NCBI RefSeq assembly: GCF_002906575.1
Contig: NZ_CP026309.1
Location: 3,596,001-3,660,000, forward strand
Direction: 5' to 3'
DNA: 64,000 bases
From: Salinigranum rubrum
GTDB taxonomy: Archaea; Halobacteriota; Halobacteria; Halobacteriales; Haloferacaceae
Every line of letters begins with the position of its first letter. The stretch's first letter is position 1. Shown piece by piece: positions 25,107 to 40,407 of this stretch. The notes under the pieces were generated by a model. That model had not been told where the DNA came from, did no database searches, and saw only the letters and a program-made list of their open reading frames with translations. The translations under genes and the position numbers were made by a program.

Positions 25107-26000
25107 ATGCCGGCAGACAAGACGACCAGCATGGCCGAGGCCATCGGCCGGATCGACCGGGGGAGCACCGTCGCCGCCGGACTGGCGCTCGAACACGCCA
25201 TCCCCTCCGCCGCCGGGCACGAACTCATCAGACAGGGGGTCGAGGACCTGACGCTCGTCGGCCCCATCAGCGACGTCCTCTTCGACCAGTTCGTGGCCGC
25301 GGACCTCGTCTCGCAGGTACGCGCCGCGTGGGTCGGGAACGTCAGCGCCGGCAGCGGCTACAACTACCGCCGGGCGGTCGAAGGCGGGGAGATAGACGTC
25401 GAGAACCACTCGAACTTCTCCATCGCGCTCTCGCTCCACGCGGCGGAACTGGGCGTGCCGTACCTCCCGACGCGCTCGTTGCTCGGGAGCGACATCGCCG
25501 CGGAGCCGCACTTGCGCGTCACCGAGGACCCCTTCGAGGGCGAGCGGGTCGTCCAGGTTCCCGCAATCGCCCCGGACTGGACGTTCGTGCACGTCCAGCG
25601 CGCCTCGCCCGCGGGAGACGCCCACCTCTGGGGGAACACCGGCGTCACGTACGAGGGCGTCCGGGCGGCCGACCGCGTCGTCGTCACCGCCGAAGAGGTC
25701 GTCGACGAGTCGGTCATCACGAGCGACCCGAGTCGGACCCGCATCACCCGCGAGCAGGTCGACGCCGTCGTCGAGGTTCCCTTCGGCGCACATCCCTCCC
25801 CGCTCGCCGGGCGGTACCACCGCGACAACGACTTCTACCTCGAATACGCCGAGTCGACCCGCGACCCCGACGACGCGGCCGCGTGGCTCGACGAGTGGGT
25901 GTACGGCGTCGACGACCGCGCCGCGTACATGGAAAAGATCGACCGCGACCTCTCGGTCGAGGAACCGACCGTCGCCGCGGAGGTGACCTATGGCCAGTGA
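25107..26000 (+). CDS. CoA-transferase, subunit A (glutaconate/3-oxoacid family I)
   Basis: The protein has 297 residues. It resembles GctA-type alpha subunits: Gly-rich ATP-like start SMAEAIGRIDRGSTVAAGLALEH, VRAAWVGNVSAGSGYNYRRAVE, and VVVTAEEVVDESVI near the end. The alpha subunit binds CoA. The catalytic Glu is supplied by the beta subunit, whose gene overlaps by 11 bases. Family I enzymes move CoA from one acid to another, for example from succinyl-CoA or acetyl-CoA to an aromatic or dicarboxylic acid. The exact substrate pair is unknown, but the surrounding genes suggest an aryl or alkyl acid. Confidence 0.85.
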   Translation: MPADKTTSMAEAIGRIDRGSTVAAGLALEHAIPSAAGHELIRQGVEDLTLVGPISDVLFDQFVAADLVSQVRAAWVGNVSAGSGYNYRRAVEGGEIDVENHSNFSIALSLHAAELGVPYLPTRSLLGSDIAAEPHLRVTEDPFEGERVVQVPAIAPDWTFVHVQRASPAGDAHLWGNTGVTYEGVRAADRVVVTAEEVVDESVITSDPSRTRITREQVDAVVEVPFGAHPSPLAGRYHRDNDFYLEYAESTRDPDDAAAWLDEWVYGVDDRAAYMEKIDRDLSVEEPTVAAEVTYGQ

Positions 26001-26790
26001 GGGTGTGGGTGGGGACCACGAGTACACGGCGCGGGAACTGATGGTGAGCGCGGCCGCCCGCGAAATCTCCGATGGAGACGTGGCGTTCGTCGGGATGCGG
26101 TTGCCGCTCATCGCCTTCCAGGTCGCGGTCAGCACGCACGCGCCGAACGCGACGTCGGTGTTCGAGAGCGGCGTCGTCCGCGGCGACGCCGCGGAGGGCT
26201 TCATCCACACGATGTGTGACCTCCCGAACCTGAACCGCGCGGTGTCGACGACGAGGATGCTCGACGTGATGGGCCGGCTCGCCCGCGGCGACATCGACGT
26301 CGGCTTCCTCGGTGGCGCGGAGATAGACCGATACGGGAACCTCAACACAACGCGCGTCCACGCGGGCGACCGGGAGATTCGACTTCCCGGAAGCGGTGGC
26401 GCCTGCGACATCGCCTGCATGGCCGACCGGACGGTCGTCCTGATGGCGCACGAGCCCCGCCGCTTCGTCGAGCGCGTCGAATACGTCACCAGTCCCGGTC
26501 ACGGCGACGGTGGCGACTGGCGCGAGCGCGAGGGCCTCCCGGGTGGGGGTCCGAGCGCACTGGTCACGACGAAAGCGTCGTTCGGCTTCGAGGACGGCGA
26601 ACTGTACGTGAAGAGCTGTCATCCCGGCGTGAGCCTCGACGAGGTGCGCGAGGACTTCCCGTGGGACCTCCGAGCGAAGTCGGACCTCACGGGCGACGCG
26701 GGCGGAGCGGTCGAGACCACGCCCGAACCCACCGCGGAGGAACTCGACCTCATCCGGACGTTCGACCCCGACGGCTTCTGGACGCGCTGA
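25990..26790 (+). CDS. CoA-transferase, subunit B (glutaconate/3-oxoacid family I)
   Basis: The protein has 266 residues. The catalytic Glu is most likely Glu59 in SVFESGVVRGD, the ESG motif of family I CoA-transferase beta subunits, which forms a covalent glutamyl-CoA. IDVGFLGGAEIDRYGNLNTT and GSGGACDIACMADRTVVLM follow in the usual order. It starts inside the alpha-subunit gene (11-base overlap), so the two are coupled and equimolar. Together they would activate the substrate without ATP, in parallel to the AMP-forming ligase encoded just downstream. Confidence 0.86.
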   Translation: MASEGVGGDHEYTARELMVSAAAREISDGDVAFVGMRLPLIAFQVAVSTHAPNATSVFESGVVRGDAAEGFIHTMCDLPNLNRAVSTTRMLDVMGRLARGDIDVGFLGGAEIDRYGNLNTTRVHAGDREIRLPGSGGACDIACMADRTVVLMAHEPRRFVERVEYVTSPGHGDGGDWREREGLPGGGPSALVTTKASFGFEDGELYVKSCHPGVSLDEVREDFPWDLRAKSDLTGDAGGAVETTPEPTAEELDLIRTFDPDGFWTR

Positions 26791-26919: not shown

Positions 26920-28569
26920 ATGCAGCCACAGGTTCCGGAGGGGAAGCTCCCGGACGCGGAGTCGATGCCGGACTTGCTCTTCACGCTCCCGGAGACGCAC
27001 TACCCGAAACGAATCAACGCCGCCACCGAACTGGTCGACCGGCACGTCGAGGAGGGCCGCGGTGACGACGTCGCCATCTACTTCGAGGACGAGGAGATCA
27101 CCTACGCGGACCTGCAGTCACGGGTAAACCGGTTCGGGAACGCGCTGTCGGAGATTGGCGTCGAGGCGGGGAGCCGCGTCGTGGTCCGGTTCCCCAACAG
27201 ACCGGAGGCCGTCGTCGCGTGTCTGGCCGTCCAGAAACTCGGCGGGGTCGCGCTCCCGTCGATGAAGCTCCTGCGGGCCAAGGAGTTGGAGTACATCTTC
27301 AACGACGCGGGCGCGACCCACTGCGTCGTCTACGACGGCCTGCTCGACGAGGTGGAGGGCGCGATGCCGAACCTCGACACGCTGGAGGAGGTAATCGTCG
27401 TCGACCGCGGCGCGGGCGTCGACCACGCGTACCACGACTACGACGCGCTGCTCGAATCGGGGGGTTCGACCCTGGACGCGTACGACACCGAACGCACGGA
27501 CCTCGCGCTGATGCTGTACACCAGCGGGACGACCGGCCGGCCGAAGGGGGCGATTCACACGCACCGACAGCTCCTCGCGTCGGCTGACAGCTACGCCCGC
27601 TACTGTCTCGAACCGACGCGAGAGGACGTCTTCGGGGGGAACCCGCCGCTCCCGTTCGCGTACGGCTACGGTGACCTCGTGACCTTCCCCCTTCGGTTCG
27701 GCGCGTCGACGAGCCTCGTCGAGAACGCCACGCCCGGCGACCTGCTCGAAGCGGTCGAGGCCCACGGCATCACCGTCCTCTGCTCGATTCCGACGGCGTT
27801 CAACCAGATGCTCGCGAAACACCCCGACGCCCCCGACGAGCACGACCTCTCCTCGCTCAGAGCCGGGATGAGCGCGGGTGAGCCCCTCGCCCCCAGCACG
27901 TACGACGCCGTCGAGGACGCGTACGGCATCAAACTCCTCGACGGCATCGGCACGACCGAGATGCTGCACATCTTCGTCAGCCACCGCCACACCGACGAGG
28001 TCGACCCGTCGGCGACGGGGTTTCCGGTCCCGGGGTACGAGTGTCGGGTCGTCGACCCCGACACCCGCGAGGAGGTCGACAGGGGGGAAGCGGGGCTGCT
28101 CGCCGTCCGCGGCCCGACGGGCATCACCTACTGGGGTCGCCCCGACAAGCAGGCGGAGTCGGTCGTCGACGGCTGGAGCTACCCCGGCGACATCTTCGTC
28201 CACCGCGAGGACGGGAGGCTGGAGTACAAGTCCCGCGCGGACGACCTCATCATCTCCTCGGGGTACAACATCCCCGGCCCCGAGGTGGAGAACGTCGTCC
28301 AGGAACTCGACAGCGTCTCCGAGGTTGCCGTCGTCGGCACCCCCGACGAGGAGCGCGGCCAGGTGGTCAAGGCGTTCGTCGTCCTCGCCGAGGGCGTCGA
28401 GGAGAGCGACGACCTGATCGACGAGATACAGACGCACGTCAAGAACACCCTCGCCCCGTACAAGTACCCGCGGGCGGTCGAGTTCGTCGCGGAACTCCCG
28501 CGGACCGAAACGGGGAAGATACAGCGCGTGAAGCTCCGCGAGCGCGAACGCGAGCAGTACGAGGACTGA
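26920..28569 (+). CDS. AMP-forming acyl/aryl-CoA ligase, benzoate-CoA ligase-like
   Basis: The protein has 549 residues, the usual size of ANL-family ligases. Motifs in order: YTSGTTGRPKGAIHTH (phosphate loop and aromatic HTH, typical of benzoate-CoA and 2-aminobenzoate-CoA ligases), GIGTTEMLHIF, WSYPGDIFVHRED, RADDLIISSGYNIPGPEVE and ETGKIQRVKLRE with the catalytic Lys. It activates a carboxylic acid with ATP to an acyl-adenylate and then transfers it to CoA. The best family match is to benzoate- and anthranilate-activating enzymes, so an aromatic acid is a reasonable guess, but side-chain acids cannot be excluded. It stands after the CoA-transferase genes and before MaoC. Confidence 0.88.
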   Translation: MQPQVPEGKLPDAESMPDLLFTLPETHYPKRINAATELVDRHVEEGRGDDVAIYFEDEEITYADLQSRVNRFGNALSEIGVEAGSRVVVRFPNRPEAVVACLAVQKLGGVALPSMKLLRAKELEYIFNDAGATHCVVYDGLLDEVEGAMPNLDTLEEVIVVDRGAGVDHAYHDYDALLESGGSTLDAYDTERTDLALMLYTSGTTGRPKGAIHTHRQLLASADSYARYCLEPTREDVFGGNPPLPFAYGYGDLVTFPLRFGASTSLVENATPGDLLEAVEAHGITVLCSIPTAFNQMLAKHPDAPDEHDLSSLRAGMSAGEPLAPSTYDAVEDAYGIKLLDGIGTTEMLHIFVSHRHTDEVDPSATGFPVPGYECRVVDPDTREEVDRGEAGLLAVRGPTGITYWGRPDKQAESVVDGWSYPGDIFVHREDGRLEYKSRADDLIISSGYNIPGPEVENVVQELDSVSEVAVVGTPDEERGQVVKAFVVLAEGVEESDDLIDEIQTHVKNTLAPYKYPRAVEFVAELPRTETGKIQRVKLREREREQYED

Positions 28570-28650: not shown

Positions 28651-29091
28651 ATGCGTCACTACGAGGACATCGCGGTCGGCGAACGGGTCGAACTGGGCAG
28701 CTACACGGTGACGAAAGCGGAGATACGGGAGTTCGCGGAGCAGTACGACCCCCAGCCGATTCACGTCGACGAGGCGGCGGCCAGGGAGTCGGTGTACGGC
28801 GGCCTCATCGCGAGCGGGTGGCACACGGCCGCGGTCTGCATGCGTCTCCTCAGCGAGGGGTTTCTCAACGAGACGGCGAGCATGGGGTCGCCCGGCCTCG
28901 ACGAACTCCGGTGGCTCGCCCCGGTCCGTCCGGGCGACACGCTCTCGGCGTCGGTCGAGATACTCGACACGCGTCCCTCCGAGAGCAGGGAGGACCGCGG
29001 CTACGTGAAGAACCGCCTCGTGGGGCGAAACCAGGAGGGCGACGACGTCATCTCCTGGGAGGCGACGAACATCATCGGCCGGCGGCCCTGA
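28651..29091 (+). CDS. MaoC-like (R)-specific enoyl-CoA hydratase, hotdog fold
   Basis: The protein has 146 residues. The hydratase-2 motif with catalytic Asp and His is visible in QYDPQPIHVDEAAA, followed by YGGLIASGWHTAAVCMRL. It adds water to enoyl-CoA to give (R)-3-hydroxyacyl-CoA, or works on modified acids such as aryl enoyl-CoA. It sits between the ligase (81-base gap) and a convergent crotonase gene. It gives the region a second type of hydratase in addition to the crotonases. Confidence 0.86.
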   Translation: MRHYEDIAVGERVELGSYTVTKAEIREFAEQYDPQPIHVDEAAARESVYGGLIASGWHTAAVCMRLLSEGFLNETASMGSPGLDELRWLAPVRPGDTLSASVEILDTRPSESREDRGYVKNRLVGRNQEGDDVISWEATNIIGRRP

Positions 29092-30081: not shown

Positions 30082-30621
30082 ATGTGTGCCGCCTACACCA
30101 CCTCCGAGGAGTATCTCCCCGCCGACACAGACGGCGAGGTCACGCTGCAGGTGACCGACACGGAGTCGCGCGAGATCTTTCAGACCAGAGCGCGCGTCGC
30201 TCGCACCCCCGACGACCTCACCTCGCCGGCCCCGCTGACGGTCGTCAAGGGACCCCACGAGAACATCGAAGAGCAGTGGTACATCGAGATCATCGAGAGC
30301 GAGAGCGAGGACGAGGACGCAGACGAGGACGGAGGCGACGGAGCCGCCGGTGAGGCGGTCGACGCAGACCTCCTCAGGCGGTGTATCGTGGAGGCCAGAG
30401 AGGAGTCGGACCTGCTGAACGCGCGCTCGGAGGAGTTGCGAGCCATCGTCACGTACCTCGTCCGGACCGGGGAGTTCGACTCGACGTCGGACGCGGTGCG
30501 GTCGCTGCTGTCGGCGCGGCTGAACGCGGCGTATCCGGACCTCGTCGACCGGTACGTCGACGAGCGCACCGAACTCGAACGCGAGGCCGTCGCGTCGTCG
30601 CTCCGCGGGGACGACCGATGA
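30082..30621 (+). CDS. Putative ribbon-helix-helix regulator at the head of the UbiD operon
   Basis: The protein has 179 residues. Residues 1-75 look beta-rich, then comes an acidic linker (about 75-95, many Glu/Asp). The C-terminal part reads ELRAIVTYLVRTGEFDSTSD and then AVRSLLSARL, a pattern close to ribbon-helix-helix proteins (helix, Gly-x-Phe turn, Ser-rich turn, Ala-Val-Arg-x-Leu-Leu helix). I therefore suggest a DNA-binding role, perhaps autoregulation of this operon, but this is inference from a short motif. No family is recognised for the N-terminal part. The stop overlaps the UbiD start (ATGA). Confidence 0.5.
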   Translation: MCAAYTTSEEYLPADTDGEVTLQVTDTESREIFQTRARVARTPDDLTSPAPLTVVKGPHENIEEQWYIEIIESESEDEDADEDGGDGAAGEAVDADLLRRCIVEAREESDLLNARSEELRAIVTYLVRTGEFDSTSDAVRSLLSARLNAAYPDLVDRYVDERTELEREAVASSLRGDDR

Positions 30622-32138
30622 CGGACGCGGAGACGTCACCGAGCCTGCGGGCGTTCCTCGACCGACTCGACGGGGAGGGGGAACTCGTTCGAGTCGAACA
30701 GCGGGTGTCGTGGAACCTCGAAGCCAGCGCGATATCGATGCGGGCGGCCGAGACCGACGCCGCGGTTCCGCTGTTCGAGTCCGTCGCCGACACCGGCGTC
30801 CCGGGCGCGAGGCTCGTCGGCGACCCGTACCGCGGCTCACAGCGCCGGCCGTGGGACCGCGTCGCGCGGGCGCTCGGGCTGCCGCCCGACCTCGACAGCG
30901 CGACGTTCTACGACGCCGTCATCGACCGGCTCAAACGACCCCTGGACCCGATCACCACCGACCCCGCGGACGCGCCGTGTAAGGAAGTCGTGCGTACCGG
31001 CAACGACGTCGACCTGCTCTCGTTCCCGTGGCCGTACATCCACGCCCGCGACGGCGGTCGGTACTCGAATCTCCACACGCTCGTCGCGCCGGACCCCGAC
31101 TCGTCGTGGGTCGACTGGTCCGCTCACCGAACGATGCTCCACGACTCCCGCCAGGCGAGCGTGCTCCTACTGGCCGGTGAGCAGACCCCGAACCTCTACT
31201 ACTACAAGTACGAGCGGCGCGAGGAGCCGATGCCGGTCGCCATCGTCGTCGGCGCCGAACCGGCCGTCCAGTGCACCTCGGTGATGTGGATTCCGACCGG
31301 GAGCGACGAGGCGCGGTTCGCCGGGGGGCTGAAGGGGTCGCCGATAGAACTGGTCCCGTGTGAGACGAACGACCTGCTCGTCCCCGCCAGCGCCGAGTTG
31401 GTGATCGAGGGCCGCGTCCTCCCCGGCAAGCGCCTCGACGAGGGACCGTTCGGCGACTACTTCGGGTACATCCACGGCCCCCGGCGGTCGGTACCGGCGC
31501 TCGAAGTCGACGCCGTCACCCACCGACGGAACCCTATCGTCCCGTTCTGCGTGGAGGGCATCGGCGTCGGCCACACGGAGAACACGACGAGTTCGATGGA
31601 GGTCAGCTGCGTCGGTCCCGACGCGACGCTCGGGCTCTGGGCGGCGGGGTTCGACGTCGTTCGCTGTGTCCCCTGGCGTTTCACGCCGCGAACGGTGTAC
31701 GTCGTGGCTGTCGACACCACCGAACCGGGGGCGCTGCACGAACTGGCGAACTTCATCTTCACCACGTGGGGGATGCTCCACATCGACTTCTTCGTGTTCG
31801 TCGACGCGGACGTCGACCCGCTCGACACGCGCGCCGTGCTCGAAGCCATCGCCCGCCACGCCGACCCCGACGCGGACTTCCACCAGTTCGGGACGGAGAC
31901 GATGCCCAAGGTCCCGCTGAACATCTATCAAACACCCGACGAGAAGGGCGACGTACAGACCGGCACATCGAAAGCGAAGACTGCGAAGGCGTACATCGAC
32001 GCGACGCGAGACGGGAGCGAGGCGAGTGTTCAGAACGAACTGACACGAGAGGCACGGGAGCGCGCGCAGTCGGTGCTCGCAGCGGCCGGCCTTCCGGAGG
32101 AACGGCTCACGCTCGTCGATAGTGAGGAGAGCCGATGA
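30618..32138 (+). CDS. UbiD-family decarboxylase/carboxylase
   Basis: The protein has 506 residues, normal for UbiD. The catalytic strand is clear: EGPFGDYFGY, with Glu275 and Asp280 in the position of the Glu and acidic residues that surround prenylated FMN in UbiD and Fdc1. LPGKRLDEGP, PSWP-like LSFPWPYIHA and the C-terminal GTETMPKVPLN also fit. The family reversibly decarboxylates aromatic or alpha,beta-unsaturated acids using prFMN made by UbiX; no ubiX is in the window. The gene overlaps both neighbours (ATGA upstream and downstream), so it is in an operon with a second UbiD-like gene. Its substrate may be an aromatic acid of the region, but this is inference. Confidence 0.87.
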   Translation: MTDAETSPSLRAFLDRLDGEGELVRVEQRVSWNLEASAISMRAAETDAAVPLFESVADTGVPGARLVGDPYRGSQRRPWDRVARALGLPPDLDSATFYDAVIDRLKRPLDPITTDPADAPCKEVVRTGNDVDLLSFPWPYIHARDGGRYSNLHTLVAPDPDSSWVDWSAHRTMLHDSRQASVLLLAGEQTPNLYYYKYERREEPMPVAIVVGAEPAVQCTSVMWIPTGSDEARFAGGLKGSPIELVPCETNDLLVPASAELVIEGRVLPGKRLDEGPFGDYFGYIHGPRRSVPALEVDAVTHRRNPIVPFCVEGIGVGHTENTTSSMEVSCVGPDATLGLWAAGFDVVRCVPWRFTPRTVYVVAVDTTEPGALHELANFIFTTWGMLHIDFFVFVDADVDPLDTRAVLEAIARHADPDADFHQFGTETMPKVPLNIYQTPDEKGDVQTGTSKAKTAKAYIDATRDGSEASVQNELTREARERAQSVLAAAGLPEERLTLVDSEESR

Positions 32139-33538
32139 CGGCTCCCGACCTCCGGACCACCGTCGAGCGGCTCGAAGCCGACGGCGACCTGCTCCGCATC
32201 GACGACCGATTGGGCGTCGAGGAGCCGTTCGCCGTCGCGGGCGAGGCCGCGCGCGTGAGCGGGCCGGCGCTCTGCTTCACCGACGTGCCGGGGACCGGTC
32301 GGCTGGTGAGCGGAGTCCGGGGCGGTCCCGACCAGACCGTCGAGCGGTCGCGACTCCCCTGGCGTCGGTGTGCGACGGCGCTCGGCCTCGACGCCGACGC
32401 GTCGTACGGGTCGCTGCTGCGCGTCGTGCGAAAGGCGGGAACGACGCCGTCGGCCGTCGAGGAGACGTCGCTCCGCGCCGAGCGAACGGCGCGGGACGTG
32501 ACTGCGCTCGCGCTCCCCGTGTCGACGCCGACGTCCCCGTCGCTGGTGACGGACGGCATCGTGTCGACGAGCGTCGACGGGCGGACGCGGTGGGCGCCCG
32601 TCCGCGGCGTCGTCGAGGGGCGGACCGCGCTCCGACTCAGCGTTCCCGAGCGGTTCGCCGACGCCGCGGGCGACTCACCCGTCGCCCTCGCGCTCGGCGT
32701 TCCGACGGCGGCGACGCTGGCGACACATCTCCGAGCGACCGGGGCGCGTCCCTGGCGCGACCGGGAGGCCCCAGCTATCGCGGCCGCGCTGGGTGCGTCG
32801 AACGTCGCCGCCGTCGACGGCGGTCAGGTACCGGCGGACGCGGAGGTCGTCGTCGAGGGGGCGGCCACGCGTGAGGAGTCACCGCCGCCCGACGAACCGG
32901 CCCGGTGGGAGTGTACGGTACCGACGGCGACCCTCTCGGTGTCGGCCACCCGAGTCTCGACGCGTCCGGACCCGCTGCTCCCCTGCGTCCCGCTCGGCGC
33001 ACCGCTCGCCGACGACGTCCACGTCACGAGCGTCGTCGAGTCGGTCCAGCTGTCGAGTCGGGTGAACGGCTACTGGGGCGTCTCGCCCGTCGAGTGGGTC
33101 TGGCTCCCGGTCGAGGCGGGACTCGGCCTCTGTCTCGTCGCGAGCGAACTCCTGTACGCGGGCTTCGAGTGGCAACTGGCGAACACCCTGTTCTCCTTCT
33201 CGTCGTCGTTCGACAAGATCGTCATCCTCGACGCCGACAGTTCCGTCGAGAACCTCGCCCGCGCGCTGGACGACATGTGGGTGAAAGCCCACCCCTCTCA
33301 CGACTGGCACTTCAGCGACCCGGCGGCACCGGCCGCGACGGCACCGCACTACCGAGGGGACGGGGAGACGGGGTCGCGGTTGTACGTCAACGCCGCGTGG
33401 GACCCACAGTGGGACGAGGAGTACATCGCCCCCCGGGTCGCCTTCGAGACGATGTACCCCCAAGAAATTCAAGAGGGCGTCCGCGAACGATGGGAGTCGT
33501 TCGGGTTCGAGACGGTCGAGTCGGGAGGCGGGGAGTGA
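32135..33538 (+). CDS. Divergent UbiD-like protein without the EGPFG motif
   Basis: The protein has 467 residues and clear UbiD-like traits: an N-terminal RTTVERLEADGDLLRI, an internal flavin-domain-like region, and a C-terminal half (SSRVNGYWGVSPVEW, ANTLFSFSSSFDKIVILDA, WDPQWDEEYIAP) similar to its neighbour's end. At the place where the partner has EGPFGDY, this protein has EGAATREESPPPDE. The catalytic acid motif is therefore missing. I suggest a structural or regulatory subunit of a heteromeric UbiD enzyme, as seen in phenylphosphate carboxylase, which uses two UbiD-like chains. It overlaps the catalytic gene and is followed by a metallo-hydrolase that overlaps it by four bases. Confidence 0.68.
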   Translation: MTAPDLRTTVERLEADGDLLRIDDRLGVEEPFAVAGEAARVSGPALCFTDVPGTGRLVSGVRGGPDQTVERSRLPWRRCATALGLDADASYGSLLRVVRKAGTTPSAVEETSLRAERTARDVTALALPVSTPTSPSLVTDGIVSTSVDGRTRWAPVRGVVEGRTALRLSVPERFADAAGDSPVALALGVPTAATLATHLRATGARPWRDREAPAIAAALGASNVAAVDGGQVPADAEVVVEGAATREESPPPDEPARWECTVPTATLSVSATRVSTRPDPLLPCVPLGAPLADDVHVTSVVESVQLSSRVNGYWGVSPVEWVWLPVEAGLGLCLVASELLYAGFEWQLANTLFSFSSSFDKIVILDADSSVENLARALDDMWVKAHPSHDWHFSDPAAPAATAPHYRGDGETGSRLYVNAAWDPQWDEEYIAPRVAFETMYPQEIQEGVRERWESFGFETVESGGGE

Positions 33539-34479
33539 CGCGCGTCGTCGGAATCACCGTCGGAACGGGGAGTCCGGAGGGCGCGAACAGCGCGTACCTC
33601 CTCCCCGAGCGCGGCGTCGTCGTCGACCCCGGCCCGCCGGGCGACGAGGCCTGGAGCGCGCTCGGGGAGGGAATCCGGGCGGCGGGATGCGAACTCGACG
33701 CGGTCGACCACGTCGTGGTGACACACTGGCACGCCGACCACACCGGCCTCGCGCCGCGGCTCGCACGCGCCGCCGACGCGACGATTCACATGCACGCACG
33801 CGACGCGCCGTTACTCGCGTCGTACGAGCAGGCGCGTGCCGAGCGGTTGGAGCGCGACGCGGCGGCGCTGCGGCGGTGGGGCGTCCCCGAGGCGACCGTC
33901 GAGGCCGTCATCGAGGGGGACACGCCGTCGCCGTTCCCGGCCGAGACGGCGGTCGAGAGCCACGTCGACGGGGACGAGGTCGCCGGGGGGCGACTGCTCC
34001 ACACGCCGGGGCACACGGCGGGACACGCCGCCCTCGCGTTCGACGGACACCTGTTCGTCGGCGACTGTCTCCTCCCGACTTACACCCCGAACGTCGGCGG
34101 GAGCGACACCCGCCTCGCGAACCCGTTAGGGGCGTATTTAGCGTCGGTGACGCGGCTCGAACGCCGAATCGAAGAGTGCGAATTCCACCCGGGGCACGGG
34201 GAGACGCTCGCCCTCCCGGACCGGATCGACCGGATCAGAGCGCACCACGAGGAGCGGACGCGGCGCGTCTCCGAACGGGTCGCGACCCGGGAGCGAGCGA
34301 CCCCCTGGGACGTCGCCAGCGACCTGTTCGGCGAACTCAGGGGACTACACGTGAAGTTCGGTGCCGGCGAGGCCGCAGCGCACCTCGCGTACCTGCGCGA
34401 AGAGGGGTACGTGGCCGAAGCGGACGGCGAAGTGGCGGTGTACGAACACCGACGACCGTACGAGGCGTCCGGGGAGTGA
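33535..34479 (+). CDS. Metallo-beta-lactamase-fold hydrolase
   Basis: The protein has 314 residues. It has the metal-binding motif THWHADHTG (about 66-73), a second His in TPGHTAGHAALAFDG, an Asp in FVGDCLLP and a C-terminal His in HPGHGE. The tail (about 255-314) resembles the C-terminal helical domain of glyoxalase-II/LACTB2-like hydrolases. It is the last gene of the UbiD operon (GTG at 33535 overlaps the previous stop). Possible roles are thioester hydrolysis (acyl-CoA or glutathione-like) or lactone opening, fitting the acyl-CoA context, but the substrate is unknown. Confidence 0.83.
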   Translation: MTRVVGITVGTGSPEGANSAYLLPERGVVVDPGPPGDEAWSALGEGIRAAGCELDAVDHVVVTHWHADHTGLAPRLARAADATIHMHARDAPLLASYEQARAERLERDAAALRRWGVPEATVEAVIEGDTPSPFPAETAVESHVDGDEVAGGRLLHTPGHTAGHAALAFDGHLFVGDCLLPTYTPNVGGSDTRLANPLGAYLASVTRLERRIEECEFHPGHGETLALPDRIDRIRAHHEERTRRVSERVATRERATPWDVASDLFGELRGLHVKFGAGEAAAHLAYLREEGYVAEADGEVAVYEHRRPYEASGE

Positions 34480-34828: not shown

Positions 34829-35113
34829 TCACGGCCCCGAGTTGGACTCGAGTTCGAGGTTCGAGAGGGCGCGCGCGACGCAGGTGAGGACGTACCCCTC
34901 CTGCTTCTCGCTGTCGGAGAGGAACATCCCCTCGGTCTGGTCGACCTCGCCGTCGCCGACCTTCAGGGCGCTACAGACGCCACAGACGCCCATTCGGCAC
35001 TGGTACGGGAGGTCCATGCCGGCGTCTTCGGCCGCTTCGAGGATGGGCGTGTCGGCCGGCACCTCGATCGTTCGGTCCTCGTCGACGAACGTGACCTCGT
35101 AGCGTTCGGTCAT
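34829..35113 (-). CDS. Plant-type [2Fe-2S] ferredoxin
   Basis: The protein has 94 residues. Cys39, Cys44 and Cys47 lie in QCRMGVCGVCSA and Cys78 in LTCVA, the classical C-x4-C-x2-C...C cluster ligands. The N-terminal half is a beta-grasp fold (EVTFVDEDRTIEVPADTPIL). Haloarchaeal ferredoxins of this kind carry electrons for oxygenases and oxidoreductases. It is encoded 595 bases from paaA on the opposite strand and could replace the missing PaaE reductase as electron donor. Its ATG (35113-35111) overlaps the stop of the upstream GNAT gene, so the two are cotranscribed. Confidence 0.88.
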   Translation of the reverse strand: MTERYEVTFVDEDRTIEVPADTPILEAAEDAGMDLPYQCRMGVCGVCSALKVGDGEVDQTEGMFLSDSEKQEGYVLTCVARALSNLELESNSGP

Positions 35114-35595
35114 CACTCGACCTTGCGCTCGAAGACGTGCTCGACGGGCTCGAACCCCATCCGGCGGTACGCCGACTCCGCGCGTTCGTCGCCGTCGAGC
35201 ACGTCGACCCGGCAGAAGTCGACGTCGCGGTCGGAGGCGGCGAACCACTCGATTGCGGCCTCGACGAGATCGTCGCCGATGCCCCGCTCGCGGTAGTCGC
35301 CGACGACGAAGTGGCCGTTGATGTAGCCGTGGTCCGACAGCCGGAAGATGGGGTGGTCGCCGGTCAGACGCGCTTCGAGCACCCCGACGAGTTCGCCCTC
35401 GTGCTCGGCGACGATGACGGTTCCGTACTTCGAGTCGACGAGTTGGTTCTCGAAGTACGAGAGCCACCGTTCGTCGGCCGACTCGCGGTGGTGGTACCGC
35501 TCGTCGAACTGCGAGAGGACGTCGGTGAACTGGTGCCACAGCTCCAGGAGTCGCTCGCCGTCGTCGAGAGTCGCGTGACGGATGGTTACGTCCAT
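35113..35595 (-). CDS. GNAT-family N-acetyltransferase
   Basis: The protein has 160 residues. The acetyl-CoA-binding motif A is GHFVVGDYRERGIGDDLVEA (RERGIG), followed by FCRVDVLDGDERAESAYRRMGFEPVEH. It acetylates an amine or a protein N-terminus; the target cannot be predicted. The start MDVTIRHATLDDGERLLE at ATG 35595 fits the family better than the longer frame. It shares a transcript with the ferredoxin and is divergent from paaA. Confidence 0.86.
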   Translation of the reverse strand: MDVTIRHATLDDGERLLELWHQFTDVLSQFDERYHHRESADERWLSYFENQLVDSKYGTVIVAEHEGELVGVLEARLTGDHPIFRLSDHGYINGHFVVGDYRERGIGDDLVEAAIEWFAASDRDVDFCRVDVLDGDERAESAYRRMGFEPVEHVFERKVE

Positions 35596-35672
35596 GTGAC
35601 GGGGCACGCTCCGGGGTCAAAAAGGTGTGTCGGCTGGAGAGGGAACGAGGTGAACCCGTACCTATGCAAACA

Positions 35673-35707: not shown

Positions 35708-36631
35708 ATGACCAGCGAAGAGCGACTCAAGCAACAGCTACAGGACGGGAAGATGATCGAAGACGAGTCCGAGATGACGGAGGGGTACAAGAAGGCCCTG
35801 ACGCAGACGCTCCTCGTCTCGGGCGACACCGAACTGATGAGCGCGCCGGCGTACTACGAGCCGTCGATGAACGCGCCGAGCGTCAACGCCCGGGCGTCGT
35901 GTGTGAGCGTCATCCAGGACGAACTCGGCCACGGCCACATCGCCTACCGACTCCTTGAGGACCTCGGCTACGACCGCGAGGAACTCATCTACGGCCGCGA
36001 GCCCCACGAGTTCCGCAACACGTACGGCTTCGACCAACCGCTGGAGAACTTCGCCGAACTCGTCACCGGTCACGGCATGTGGGACCGTGCGGGTATCGTC
36101 CTCCTGAGCGACATCCACGAGAACACGTCGTACGCGCCGTGGAAGCGCGCGCTCACGAAAGTCGGGAAGGAAGAGCAGTTCCACCTGCGCCACGGCGAGA
36201 CGTGGATGCGCCGACTCGCCAACAAGAACGAGAAGACAAAGCAGCGGGTCCAGGAGGCCGTCGACTGGATGTTCCCCATCGCCATCGAGTGGTTCGGGCT
36301 GCCCGACGACAAGAAGAAACACGACGACCAACTCGCCTACCGGATCAAGGCGATGTCGAACGACGAACTCCGCCAGGAGTGGATGAGCACGGCCGTCCCC
36401 CTGTGTGAGGAACTCGGCCTCGACGTGCCGGCGCACTACGACGAGGAGGCGGAGGAGTACGTCCTCGAGTACGACATGCCGGTCGCGTTCGAAGCCGAGA
36501 CCAAGACGTGGCACTTCGACGACCCCATCTCCTGGGACGACGTCATCGACCGCTGGCGCTCGCGCGGTCCCGCCAACGAGAAGTACGTGAACATGCTGCA
36601 GTCGGGGCGACTGGACCCCGTGTCCGCATGA
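35708..36631 (+). CDS. paaA: Phenylacetyl-CoA epoxidase catalytic subunit PaaA
   Basis: The protein has 307 residues, as in bacterial PaaA. Carboxylate-bridged di-iron ligands are visible: Glu42 (GDTELMSAP), Glu72-x2-His75 (DELGHGH) and Glu156-x2-His159 (KEEQFHLRHGE). The tail YVNMLQSGRLDPVSA is also family-like. PaaA inserts oxygen across the ring of phenylacetyl-CoA to give the 1,2-epoxide, with PaaC as structural partner and PaaB as bridge. The following genes overlap by four bases each, making one operon paaA, DUF59-PaaD, paaB, paaC. No PaaE reductase is in the operon. Confidence 0.92.
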   Translation: MTSEERLKQQLQDGKMIEDESEMTEGYKKALTQTLLVSGDTELMSAPAYYEPSMNAPSVNARASCVSVIQDELGHGHIAYRLLEDLGYDREELIYGREPHEFRNTYGFDQPLENFAELVTGHGMWDRAGIVLLSDIHENTSYAPWKRALTKVGKEEQFHLRHGETWMRRLANKNEKTKQRVQEAVDWMFPIAIEWFGLPDDKKKHDDQLAYRIKAMSNDELRQEWMSTAVPLCEELGLDVPAHYDEEAEEYVLEYDMPVAFEAETKTWHFDDPISWDDVIDRWRSRGPANEKYVNMLQSGRLDPVSA

Positions 36632-37008
36632 GCGCGGTCGAAACCCCGGAGTTCGGCGTCCCGTTCGGACCCGGCGAGGACGCGACCGAGTTCGAGGCGG
36701 AGATATGGGCGAACCTCGACGAGATTCCGGACCCCCACATCCCGGTGAGCCTCGTCGAGATGGCGATGGTCTACGACGTCCACCTCGACCGGGGACCCGA
36801 CGGGGTCGACGTGCGGGTGGAGATGACGTTCCCCTGCATGGGCTGTCCGGCGTACGACATGATCATCGACGACGTCCGGGCGTGCCTGCGGACGATGCGT
36901 GACGTCAGGGACGTCGAGGTCGACGTCGTCTGGGACCCCATCTGGGAGAAGTCGATGCTGACGCCCGAGGTCCGCGAGAAGATGCGCGAGTCGGGGATCG
37001 CACTATGA
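36628..37008 (+). CDS. paaD: DUF59 (MIP18-like) part of PaaD
   Basis: The protein has 126 residues. The DUF59 signature is clear: LDEIPDPHIPVSLVEMAMVYDV and FPCMGCPAYDMIIDDV with a C-x2-C pair. This corresponds to the N-terminal half of bacterial PaaD, a protein of the Fe-S assembly type needed for the epoxidase. The C-terminal zinc ribbon of bacterial PaaD is missing here and is encoded separately at 37992. It overlaps paaA (ATGA) and paaB by four bases, so position 2 in the operon differs from the usual A-B-C-D-E order. Confidence 0.85.
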   Translation: MSAVETPEFGVPFGPGEDATEFEAEIWANLDEIPDPHIPVSLVEMAMVYDVHLDRGPDGVDVRVEMTFPCMGCPAYDMIIDDVRACLRTMRDVRDVEVDVVWDPIWEKSMLTPEVREKMRESGIAL

Positions 37009-37214
37009 AGTACGAGGTGTTCGCGCGCATCAAGGCCGGCGACGACCTCATCAACGTCGGGACCGTCGACGCGCCGAGCGACCGACTGGCGAAGGTGTAC
37101 GCGTACCGGACGTACGACGAGGAGGACTGGGACCGACTCGCGGTCGTCCGCCGGGAGGACCTGCTCGACGCGACCGACGTGGGCCAGATGCCCGACTCGC
37201 CGGGGGCACCATGA
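37005..37214 (+). CDS. paaB: Phenylacetyl-CoA epoxidase subunit PaaB
   Basis: The protein has 69 residues, shorter than the bacterial 95. It keeps the family core: YEVFARIKAGDDLINVG at the start and KVYAYRTYDEEDWDRLAVVRREDL. PaaB links two PaaAC heterodimers in the bacterial complex. It overlaps both neighbours by four bases. The short length fits haloarchaeal homologues and does not suggest truncation, because no frame continues in either direction. Confidence 0.82.
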   Translation: MKYEVFARIKAGDDLINVGTVDAPSDRLAKVYAYRTYDEEDWDRLAVVRREDLLDATDVGQMPDSPGAP

Positions 37215-37984
37215 GCGACGGTTGGCCCCCCGAGGCGGTCGACTACGTGCAGTCCGTCGCGGACACGAAACTCCTGCTCTCACACCGCTACGCGCAGTGG
37301 ATGCTGTCGAGCCCGGTGCTGGAGGACGACATCGCCGGGGCGAGCGCCGCCCAGGACGAACTCGGGCACGTCCGCCAGTTGTTCCGCCTGCTCGGCCAGC
37401 AGGGACAAGAGGACGACTGGCTGGAGGGCGACCGCTCCCCCGCGGAGTTCGCCAACGCCGCCCCGCTCGACGAGAACCCCGAGACGTGGGTCGAGTTCGT
37501 CGTGACGCTCGGGCTGGTCGAGCGGGCCGCGTGGTATCTCATCGACGCCATCGTCCACGAGGACTTCGACGGCCTCGGGACCCGCATCGGCCAGGACGAG
37601 TTCTTCCACCTGGAGTTCCTCGACGGGCGGCTGGAGACGCTGGCGGACGAGCGCGCCGCCGACGTCGAAGCGGCGATGGCGGCGGCGCTTCCCGGCGTCC
37701 TCGCCTTCGTCGGCCCCGCCGAGTACGACGAGGGGACCGACCCGCTCGTCGCGGCCGGGTTCACCGACCGGTCCGCGTCGGTGCTCCGGTCGTCGTTCCG
37801 CGCGAAGTACGACGAACTGCTCGCAGGGACCGCCGTTTCTCTCGACGACCTCGACGTGGACTGGGACGCCCCCGCGGTCGAGTCGTGGGACGCGCGTCGC
37901 CGCCGTGTCGGCGAGGGGTCGGTGAGCGAGGAAGACGTGACCTCGCTCAGCGGCGTTCGGAACGCCGAGTTCGCCATGGACTGA
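37211..37984 (+). CDS. paaC: Phenylacetyl-CoA epoxidase subunit PaaC
   Basis: The protein has 257 residues, the family size. The four-helix bundle of the ferritin-like fold is evident: AASAAQDELGHVRQLFRLLGQ-like region near residue 45 and GQDEFFHLEFLDGRLE near 127. PaaC is the structural partner of PaaA in the hydroxylase core. It overlaps paaB by four bases and ends eight bases before the small PaaD-like ribbon gene. Confidence 0.88.
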   Translation: MSDGWPPEAVDYVQSVADTKLLLSHRYAQWMLSSPVLEDDIAGASAAQDELGHVRQLFRLLGQQGQEDDWLEGDRSPAEFANAAPLDENPETWVEFVVTLGLVERAAWYLIDAIVHEDFDGLGTRIGQDEFFHLEFLDGRLETLADERAADVEAAMAAALPGVLAFVGPAEYDEGTDPLVAAGFTDRSASVLRSSFRAKYDELLAGTAVSLDDLDVDWDAPAVESWDARRRRVGEGSVSEEDVTSLSGVRNAEFAMD

Positions 37985-37991
37985 CGACGAC

Positions 37992-38189
37992 ATGACACCG
38001 ACGACACCAATGCCACCAACCAAAACCGAAGACCTCACCCCCGAGTGCCCGTACTGCGGGTCGACCGAGACCGAACTCCACTCGGCGTTCGGCTCCGAGA
38101 TCTCGAAGAGCCAGTACTACTGTCGGGGCTGTCGGACCGTGTTCGAGCGGATCAAGTACGACGGGAACGTCCCCGACACGGGTCGCTAA
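37992..38189 (+). CDS. Separate zinc ribbon matching the C-terminus of PaaD
   Basis: The protein has 65 residues. ECPYCGSTETELHSAFG and YYCRGCRTVFERIKYDG give two C-x2-C pairs and match the zinc-binding end of bacterial PaaD. In bacteria this ribbon is fused to the DUF59 domain. Here the two halves are separate genes on either side of paaB and paaC. A longer N-terminus (ATG 37992) and a shorter one (ATG 38010) are both in frame; the former is used. The transcript probably continues from paaC (eight-base gap). Confidence 0.8.
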   Translation: MTPTTPMPPTKTEDLTPECPYCGSTETELHSAFGSEISKSQYYCRGCRTVFERIKYDGNVPDTGR

Positions 38190-39253: not shown

Positions 39254-40407
39254 TCAGAGGTCCAGCGTCTCGCGGGCGACGGTCGTTCGCTGGATTTCGG
39301 AGGTCCCCCCGATGAGGCTCAGTATCTTCGCGTCGCGGAAGTAGCGTTCGAGCGGTTCGTCCGTCCGGTAGCCCTTCCCGCCGTAGACCTGGATGGCGTT
39401 ACGCGTGACGAACTCCGCGGCCTCGCTCCCGGCGAGTTTCGCGGCGCTCGACGCGCGGGTTTCCGACGCGTCCTCGGCGATGCGGTTCGCCGACGAGTAG
39501 ACCAGATGCCGCGCGCTCTCCAACTGGGAGTACATGTCGGCGACGATGACCTGCACGGCCTGGTACTCGCCGATGGCGCTCCCGCCCTGCTCGCGGGCGG
39601 AGGCGTAGTCGACCGCCAAGTCGAACGCGCCGCGGGCGAGGCCGGTTCCGATGGCACCCAGGCCCGTCCGGGCCATGTCGATAGTGCCCATGGCGATGCG
39701 GAAGCCCTGACCCACCTCGCCGAGGAGCGCGTCGGCCGGGACGGAGACGTCGTCGAGGGTCGAATCGCCGGTGACGTGCCCGCGCATGCCCATGTACTCG
39801 ATACGCTCGAAGTCGAAACCGGGCGCCTCGTCGACGCTCGGCACGAGGAAGACGCTGACGCCGTGAGAGTCCTCCGGTTGGGGGCGTCGGCGGGCGACGA
39901 CCAGATGAACGTCCGCGACGCCGGCGTTCGTCCCGAACGCCTTCTCCCCCGAGAGCCGGTAGCCGTCGTCGGTCGCCTCCGCGACGGTCGATAGCTGCGA
40001 CGGCGAACTCCCCGCGTCCGGTTCCGTGAGGAGCATCGCGCCGACCGCCTCGCCGCTCGCCATCCGGTCGAGGTAGCGCTCGCGCTGGGCGTCCGTGCCG
40101 AACCGCGCGATGGGGAGGGCGGCGAAGGTGTGACCCTGAATCGACTCGGCGACCGCCCCGCTCTCCCGGGCGATTCGCTCGACAGCCAGGCAGTAGCCGA
40201 GGAAGTCCGAGGAGAGGGAGCCGTACTCGGGGGTAAGAGGAGGCCGAGCAGGCCCATCTCCCCCGCCGCTTCCATCACGTCGCGGGGGAACTCGTCGGTC
40301 GCTTCGATTTCGTCGGCCCGCGGGCGGACGACGTCGGTCGCGAACTCGTCCGCGCGCGCTCGAATCTCACGGTGCTCGTCGCTGAGGGCGGCCTCGATGA
40401 GGTCCAT
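39254..40407 (-). CDS. Acyl-CoA dehydrogenase, frame interrupted
   Basis: About 384 residues after one base is restored. The N-terminal helical domain has DEHREIRARADEFATD, the middle LLTEPDAGSSPSQ and SLDDVSVPADAL-like strand, and the C-terminal flavin-binding helices contain QVYGGKGYRTDEPLERYFRD. Where medium-chain enzymes have the catalytic Glu (YEGTS), this one reads LIGGTSEIQR. The base may come from a different position, as in isovaleryl-CoA-type enzymes. It oxidises an acyl-CoA to an enoyl-CoA with electrons to ETF. The frame breaks at the five-G run 40229-40233. One extra base joins LLLPP to EYGSLSSDF. It converges with paralogue 5 and is the right end of the catabolic region. Confidence 0.85.

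Follow-up and report, generated by a model that had tools for sequence, protein, structure and literature searches.

Based on a comparative analysis of a 64,000-nucleotide stretch of the Salinigranum rubrum genome (the window), we found that a UbiD-family protein with its catalytic network in place (P2) is encoded together with a motif-less UbiD-fold partner (P3) and a small protein (P1), and that these three genes recur as one unit in haloarchaea in which no UbiX was detected. We consider it rather probable that P1, P2 and P3 form a single UbiX-independent (de)carboxylase in which P2 and P3 make an obligate heteromer; here we infer the complex, its reaction, the role of P1 and the cofactor. 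To our knowledge, the supply of prenylated FMN to UbiD enzymes is attributed to UbiX alone, and in 85 sampled haloarchaeal species a highly conserved UbiD, always with a motif-less twin, occurs without UbiX, whereas relatives from the same genera with an ordinary UbiD do have UbiX. The unit is a clear example of the conversion of a UbiD enzyme into a pair of one catalytic and one non-catalytic chain, and gives a handle on the unstudied catabolism of aromatic and branched acids at high salt. Additionally, UbiD chemistry without UbiX is directly testable in cultivable Haloferax, Haloarcula and Natrinema species.

Gene organization and recurrence of the unit

An earlier note on this DNA described positions 30082-34479 as a four-gene operon with overlapping genes. 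The run itself was borne out: four plus-strand genes, P1 to P4, follow each other with 4 bp overlaps (ATGA, ATGA and GTGA), and all four open frames are backed by the codon-position GC pattern. As a recurrent unit, however, only P1-P2-P3 held up. These genes were collinear on one strand in all 66 haloarchaeal loci, from many genera, that were found by scanning named genomes; most of the neighbouring genes overlapped by 1-11 bp, and the others were separated by short gaps. Since the same order was also seen in 20-kb neighbourhoods from further haloarchaeal genomes, the observation is not due to chance. P4, which the note had included as a metallo-hydrolase, is a metallo-beta-lactamase-fold protein according to its HxHxDH motif (THWHADH) and its match to Lactamase_B (PF00753, E 3.2e-20), but it was located directly after or close to the unit in only 26 of the 66 loci. 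P1-P2-P3 is a real unit, to which P4 is optional. Among the 40 neighbourhoods first taken, P1 was initially missed in two copies of the unit from one genome; a P1 profile search recovered it in one of them, and in the other copy (L062, genome G213) P1 was absent by this search as well.

With P3 as query, strong matches were obtained in 85 of 391 haloarchaeal genomes. Matches to P3 in 72,556 plasmid records were confined to haloarchaea, except for the ppcA of Azoarcus at 21% identity. Full-length P1 was found in Halobacteria only in a phylum-wide search, and elsewhere its C-terminal part matched small proteins (E about 1e-4).

Table 1. Features of the P1-P2-P3 locus and its surroundings, in positions of the window.
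Feature	Position	Strand	Remark
Two CoA-transferase subunits	25107..26790	+	
Aryl/acyl-CoA ligase, benzoate-CoA-ligase-like	26920..28569	+	
MaoC hydratase	28651..29091	+	
P1, small protein, 179 aa: N-terminal five-strand domain, acidic linker, C-terminal ribbon-helix-helix-like part	30082..30621	+	No family
P1 Gly-Pro-His-Glu (GPHE), residues 57-60	30250..30261	+	Invariant in 49 sequences
P1 ribbon-helix-helix-like stretch, residues 109-150	30406..30531	+	Weak profile matches, modelled helices
P2, UbiD-family, with catalytic set, 506 aa	30618..32138	+	
P2 Arg171, equivalent of Fdc1 Arg173	31128..31130	+	
P2 Gln189, at the place of Fdc1 His191	31182..31184	+	Invariant Gln in the P2 group
P2 Glu275 to Asp280 (EGPFGD), equivalents of Fdc1 Glu277 and Glu282	31440..31457	+	
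P3, UbiD-fold partner without catalytic motif, 467 aa	32135..33538	+	
P3 invariant Trp258-Glu259, near the expected site of the lost EGPFGE loop	32906..32911	+	
P3 residues 380-435, candidate subunit-contact segment	33272..33439	+	Conserved, low model confidence
P4, metallo-beta-lactamase-fold hydrolase, THWHADH motif	33535..34479	+	In the PaaABCD-type cluster only
2Fe-2S ferredoxin adjoining the Paa genes	34829..35107	-	
PaaA, PaaD-like, PaaB-like, PaaC and PaaD zinc-ribbon (phenylacetyl-CoA-epoxidase-type)	35708..38189	+	PaaB by position in H. turkmenica

The catalytic chain P2 and its partner P3

P2 gave strong matches to all three UbiD domains of Pfam (UbiD_N, Rift-related and UbiD_C; PF01977 E 1.2e-65), and its closest solved relatives were Fdc1 and PA0254/HudA. 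Residues were compared using the numbering of A. niger Fdc1. The RXnEX4(E/D) network, which is the conserved catalytic network of the UbiD family (PMC5818171), was present in every aligned P2 sequence as R171, E275 and D280, with Asp in place of Fdc1 E282; the glutamate of the EGPFGDY motif was indeed found at residue 275, as had been noted earlier. E231, the equivalent of Fdc1 E233, was likewise kept in all aligned P2 sequences. At Fdc1 positions Q190, H191 and P226 the 47 aligned P2 sequences invariantly carry Glu, Gln and Trp, respectively, and position 168 is variable among them. The altered metal-site residues are suggestive only: they do not prove a different cofactor, because prFMN, Mn and K are bound by PA0254 (PMC7976604), although it too has no Asn at the place of Fdc1 168. 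Position 191 is not constant among other haloarchaeal UbiD proteins, and on these two grounds the argument for a different cofactor from the metal-site residues alone was rejected. Separately, all P2 proteins end in a near-invariant tail after the UbiD C-terminal domain (PLNIYQTP.EKG....GTSK.KT.K.Y..A; window 31902-32003).

The neighbouring P3 had been described as UbiD-like with loss of the motif, and both parts of this description agree with our results. P3 gave weak but above-cut-off matches to all three UbiD Pfam domains, and the Glu/Asp of RXnEX4(E/D) were missing in all rows examined. In the residue alignment no P3 counterpart was found for Fdc1 H191, E233, E277 or E282, and with these positions a complete prFMN site, which the earlier note had set against the idea of a heteromer, was absent. 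P3 keeps the cofactor-loop Trp (Fdc1 169), and most rows have Arg or His where Fdc1 has Arg173; together with the kept W258-E259, these residues mean that P3 may have some activity. Around 50 columns were invariant across 48 P3 sequences, with a mean column identity of 48%, and judged from this conservation P3 is old and constrained rather than a dying copy. The single-chain model of P3 showed a complete UbiD fold (pLDDT 82, pTM 0.80) and matched PA0254/HudA in Foldseek with an E value of 3e-25. Residues 380-435 contain many invariant residues, yet they were modelled with low confidence in the lone chain, as would be expected if this region folded against a partner.

A tree built from 47 proteins resolved P2 and P3 as one clade each (100/100 for both); a branch with support 98/91 had both clades on the same side, and P3 was a long branch. 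This supports an origin of P2 and P3 by duplication of one UbiD gene, to be read with caution in view of the long P3 branch. A heteromer of the two chains had been put forward earlier as possible; the catalytic and the motif-less UbiD were always found together, which makes a P2-P3 heteromer likely.

The small protein P1

No match to P1 was found in Pfam or NCBIfam, and its model gave no significant fold match in the PDB. P1 as a member of a known accessory family, including helpers of the LpdD/VdcD type, was rejected on these searches. The model contains a five-strand N-terminal domain, followed by helices 114-128 and 135-150 in a ribbon-helix-helix layout. The earlier description of P1 as ribbon-helix-helix-like may hold for the C-terminal half, where the evidence consists of weak matches to a ParD profile (E 0.24) and to 59-aa proteins of ribbon-helix-helix size (E about 1e-4), and does not extend to the whole protein.

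Distribution of UbiX

A UbiX gene elsewhere in the genome, which the earlier note had suggested looking for, was found by profile search neither in the host genome (4.97 Mb, 98% complete) nor in any of the 85 sampled genomes with the unit. A standard prFMN enzyme can therefore not be assumed; absence of UbiX here means absence of a detectable homologue, and says nothing on the absence of prFMN itself. UbiD was present in 117 of the 391 haloarchaeal genomes, of which 85 carried the P3 unit but lacked UbiX and 32 carried UbiX but lacked the unit, with zero overlap and zero left over (Fisher p 2e-29, relatedness ignored). The split was repeated inside three genera, and all 32 haloarchaea with UbiX carry another, stand-alone UbiD.

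The only protein of the Flavoprotein family (PF02441) in the host genome was CoaBC (TIGR00521). Exactly one PF02441 protein was present in each of the 56 tested unit genomes, in frames of at least 383 aa and thus CoaBC-sized; of these, the host copy is the one that was typed as CoaBC. A UbiX hidden as a divergent paralogue of this family was rejected on these counts. Elsewhere in the phylum, UbiX scored above the cut-off in 175 of 180 UbiD-bearing genomes. All five exceptions were fragmented, with about 190 to 250 contigs and a completeness of 70 to 92%; in four of them, weaker or partial matches to the UbiX profile were seen. All nine control genomes with UbiD also had UbiX, and the control genome of Haloferax volcanii gave hits to neither. 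As an observation apart, two genomes of the same phylum (G565 and G573) gave eight UbiD matches each, far above their relatives.

Catabolic gene neighbourhoods

The unit was found in two types of gene cluster. Type A, to which the host cluster belongs, contains P4, ring-epoxidase genes of the PaaA/PaaB/PaaC/PaaD-like kind, a 2Fe-2S ferredoxin and an acetyltransferase, as well as a benzoate-CoA-ligase-like enzyme, a two-subunit CoA transferase, MaoC and enoyl-CoA hydratases. Several type A loci add a thiolase, an aldehyde dehydrogenase and an acyl-CoA dehydrogenase. Type B, found for example in Haloarcula, Natrinema, Natrialba and Natronorubrum, encodes a different CoA ligase, an acyl-CoA dehydrogenase, a biotin carboxylase, a carboxyltransferase and a RipB-like hydratase, often with a RipC-like CoA ester lyase. 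CoA ligase and acyl-CoA enzymes are common to both types, i.e. catabolism through CoA thioesters. Judged from these neighbours, the unit may act on an aromatic acid in type A, and its substrate in type B may be a branched or unsaturated acid.

Some further features of these clusters were observed. Type B (L123:11554-20240 and similar loci) appears to be an uncharacterised catabolic route that includes P1-P2-P3. The acetyltransferase of type A is of the GNAT family (window 35113-35607) and lies between the ferredoxin and PaaA in nearly all type A clusters. An acyl-CoA dehydrogenase gene on the minus strand (window 39254 to about 40410) has an apparent frameshift near 40237-40258, with its first 50 residues in another frame; the frame is intact in its relatives, and either inactivation or a sequencing error may account for this. 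An amidohydrolase-family gene was seen near the unit on two Haloarcula plasmids (L193 and L192), and in both cluster types.

Proposed function and alternative explanations

We propose that P2 and P3, derived from a duplicated UbiD gene, form an obligate heteromer that would replace the homo-oligomers of known UbiD enzymes. P2 would carry the catalytic network Arg171-Glu275-Asp280, and P3, having given up catalysis, may serve as a structural or regulatory partner whose conserved C-terminal stretch probably folds on P2. P1 could be a small third subunit or a maturation factor. The predicted reaction of the complex is the (de)carboxylation of an acid, either aromatic or alpha,beta-unsaturated, at the point where CoA-dependent catabolic pathways begin. 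UbiX would not be needed if a non-homologous enzyme supplies prenylated FMN or if a different cofactor is used. For the full proposal of a UbiX-independent heteromeric UbiD-type (de)carboxylase, served by a second, non-homologous route to prenylated FMN or by another cofactor, and with P1 or P3 replacing what UbiX and the lost metal-site His provide, we see the chances as even.

It is possible, and we hold this tentatively, that P2 is an ordinary prFMN-dependent UbiD (de)carboxylase served by an unrecognised flavin prenyltransferase, with P3 and P1 aiding folding or cofactor loading in the manner of LpdD and VdcD. The full R-E-D network and the E233 equivalent of P2 are consistent with this, its closest solved relatives are both prFMN enzymes, and small UbiD helper proteins are known and diverse, with LpdD and VdcD as examples (PMC10865409). 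However, no recurring candidate for a prenyltransferase or synthase was found beside the operon in the neighbourhoods compared, one highly conserved enzyme, UbiX, is the only prenyltransferase named in the literature (PMC10865409), and the P2 group is fixed for Gln, Glu and Trp in place of His191, Gln190 and Pro226. A role of P1 outside the enzyme, as a ribbon-helix-helix protein that binds DNA and regulates the operon, would agree with the weak profile matches of its C-terminal half and with the layout of its modelled helices, but appears somewhat unlikely: 12 of the 18 invariant P1 residues, GPHE among them, lie within the N-terminal domain, no shared inverted repeat or operator was found upstream of P1 (a weak test), and P1 accompanies P2-P3 across both cluster types.

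Loss of the catalytic motif and the long branch of P3 could also be explained if P2 worked as a homo-oligomer and P3 either had a binding or regulatory role of its own or was a copy in slow decay. This is improbable given that P3 is present in every locus found, in fixed order beside P2 and with its set of invariant residues. Phenylphosphate carboxylase was the parallel drawn by the earlier note for its two UbiD-like chains. If the unit were a system of this kind, P1 would correspond to a small subunit, and the likeness is that two different UbiD chains and small proteins are encoded in one cluster; the best NCBIfam match of P3 was the alpha subunit of this enzyme (E 7.6e-10), and the only plasmid match outside haloarchaea was the Azoarcus ppcA mentioned above. 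The analogy is nevertheless weak, because the motif is intact in both UbiD chains of that enzyme: in Azoarcus KH32C, PpcA and PpcB each retain the Arg and EGPF(G/A)E, the latter being the motif that P3 has lost. The Azoarcus cluster also has its own UbiX encoded alongside, and P1 matches no curated family. On the motifs of PpcA and PpcB versus P3 we rejected phenylphosphate carboxylase as a direct parallel, and regard such a system as very improbable here.

Comparison with known systems

The open-access literature that could be searched, to which subscription papers did not belong, contained no relevant work on haloarchaeal or UbiX-less UbiD enzymes or on this unit, and no precedent for a motif-less UbiD partner combined with absence of UbiX. 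Nevertheless, parts of the proposed heteromeric enzyme resemble systems described before. The three-domain fold of PA0254/HudA and Fdc1 is common to P2 and P3, and the equivalents of Fdc1 R173, E233, E277 and E282 (the last as Asp) are present in P2, which unlike Fdc1 has Gln at the place of His191. PA0254/HudA and Fdc1 are homo-oligomers served by UbiX, whereas here a catalytic and a motif-less chain occur together in genomes with no UbiX detected. VdcCD and LpdC/LpdD are similar in that a small accessory protein goes with the UbiD enzyme, but they rely on UbiX, and no curated family was found to resemble P1. A multi-subunit precedent is given by the naphthalene carboxylase of culture N47, in which several UbiD-like subunits are encoded in one gene cluster and form a large complex (PMC12016498). 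That enzyme is from anaerobic bacteria and has more UbiD subunits than the haloarchaeal unit described here.
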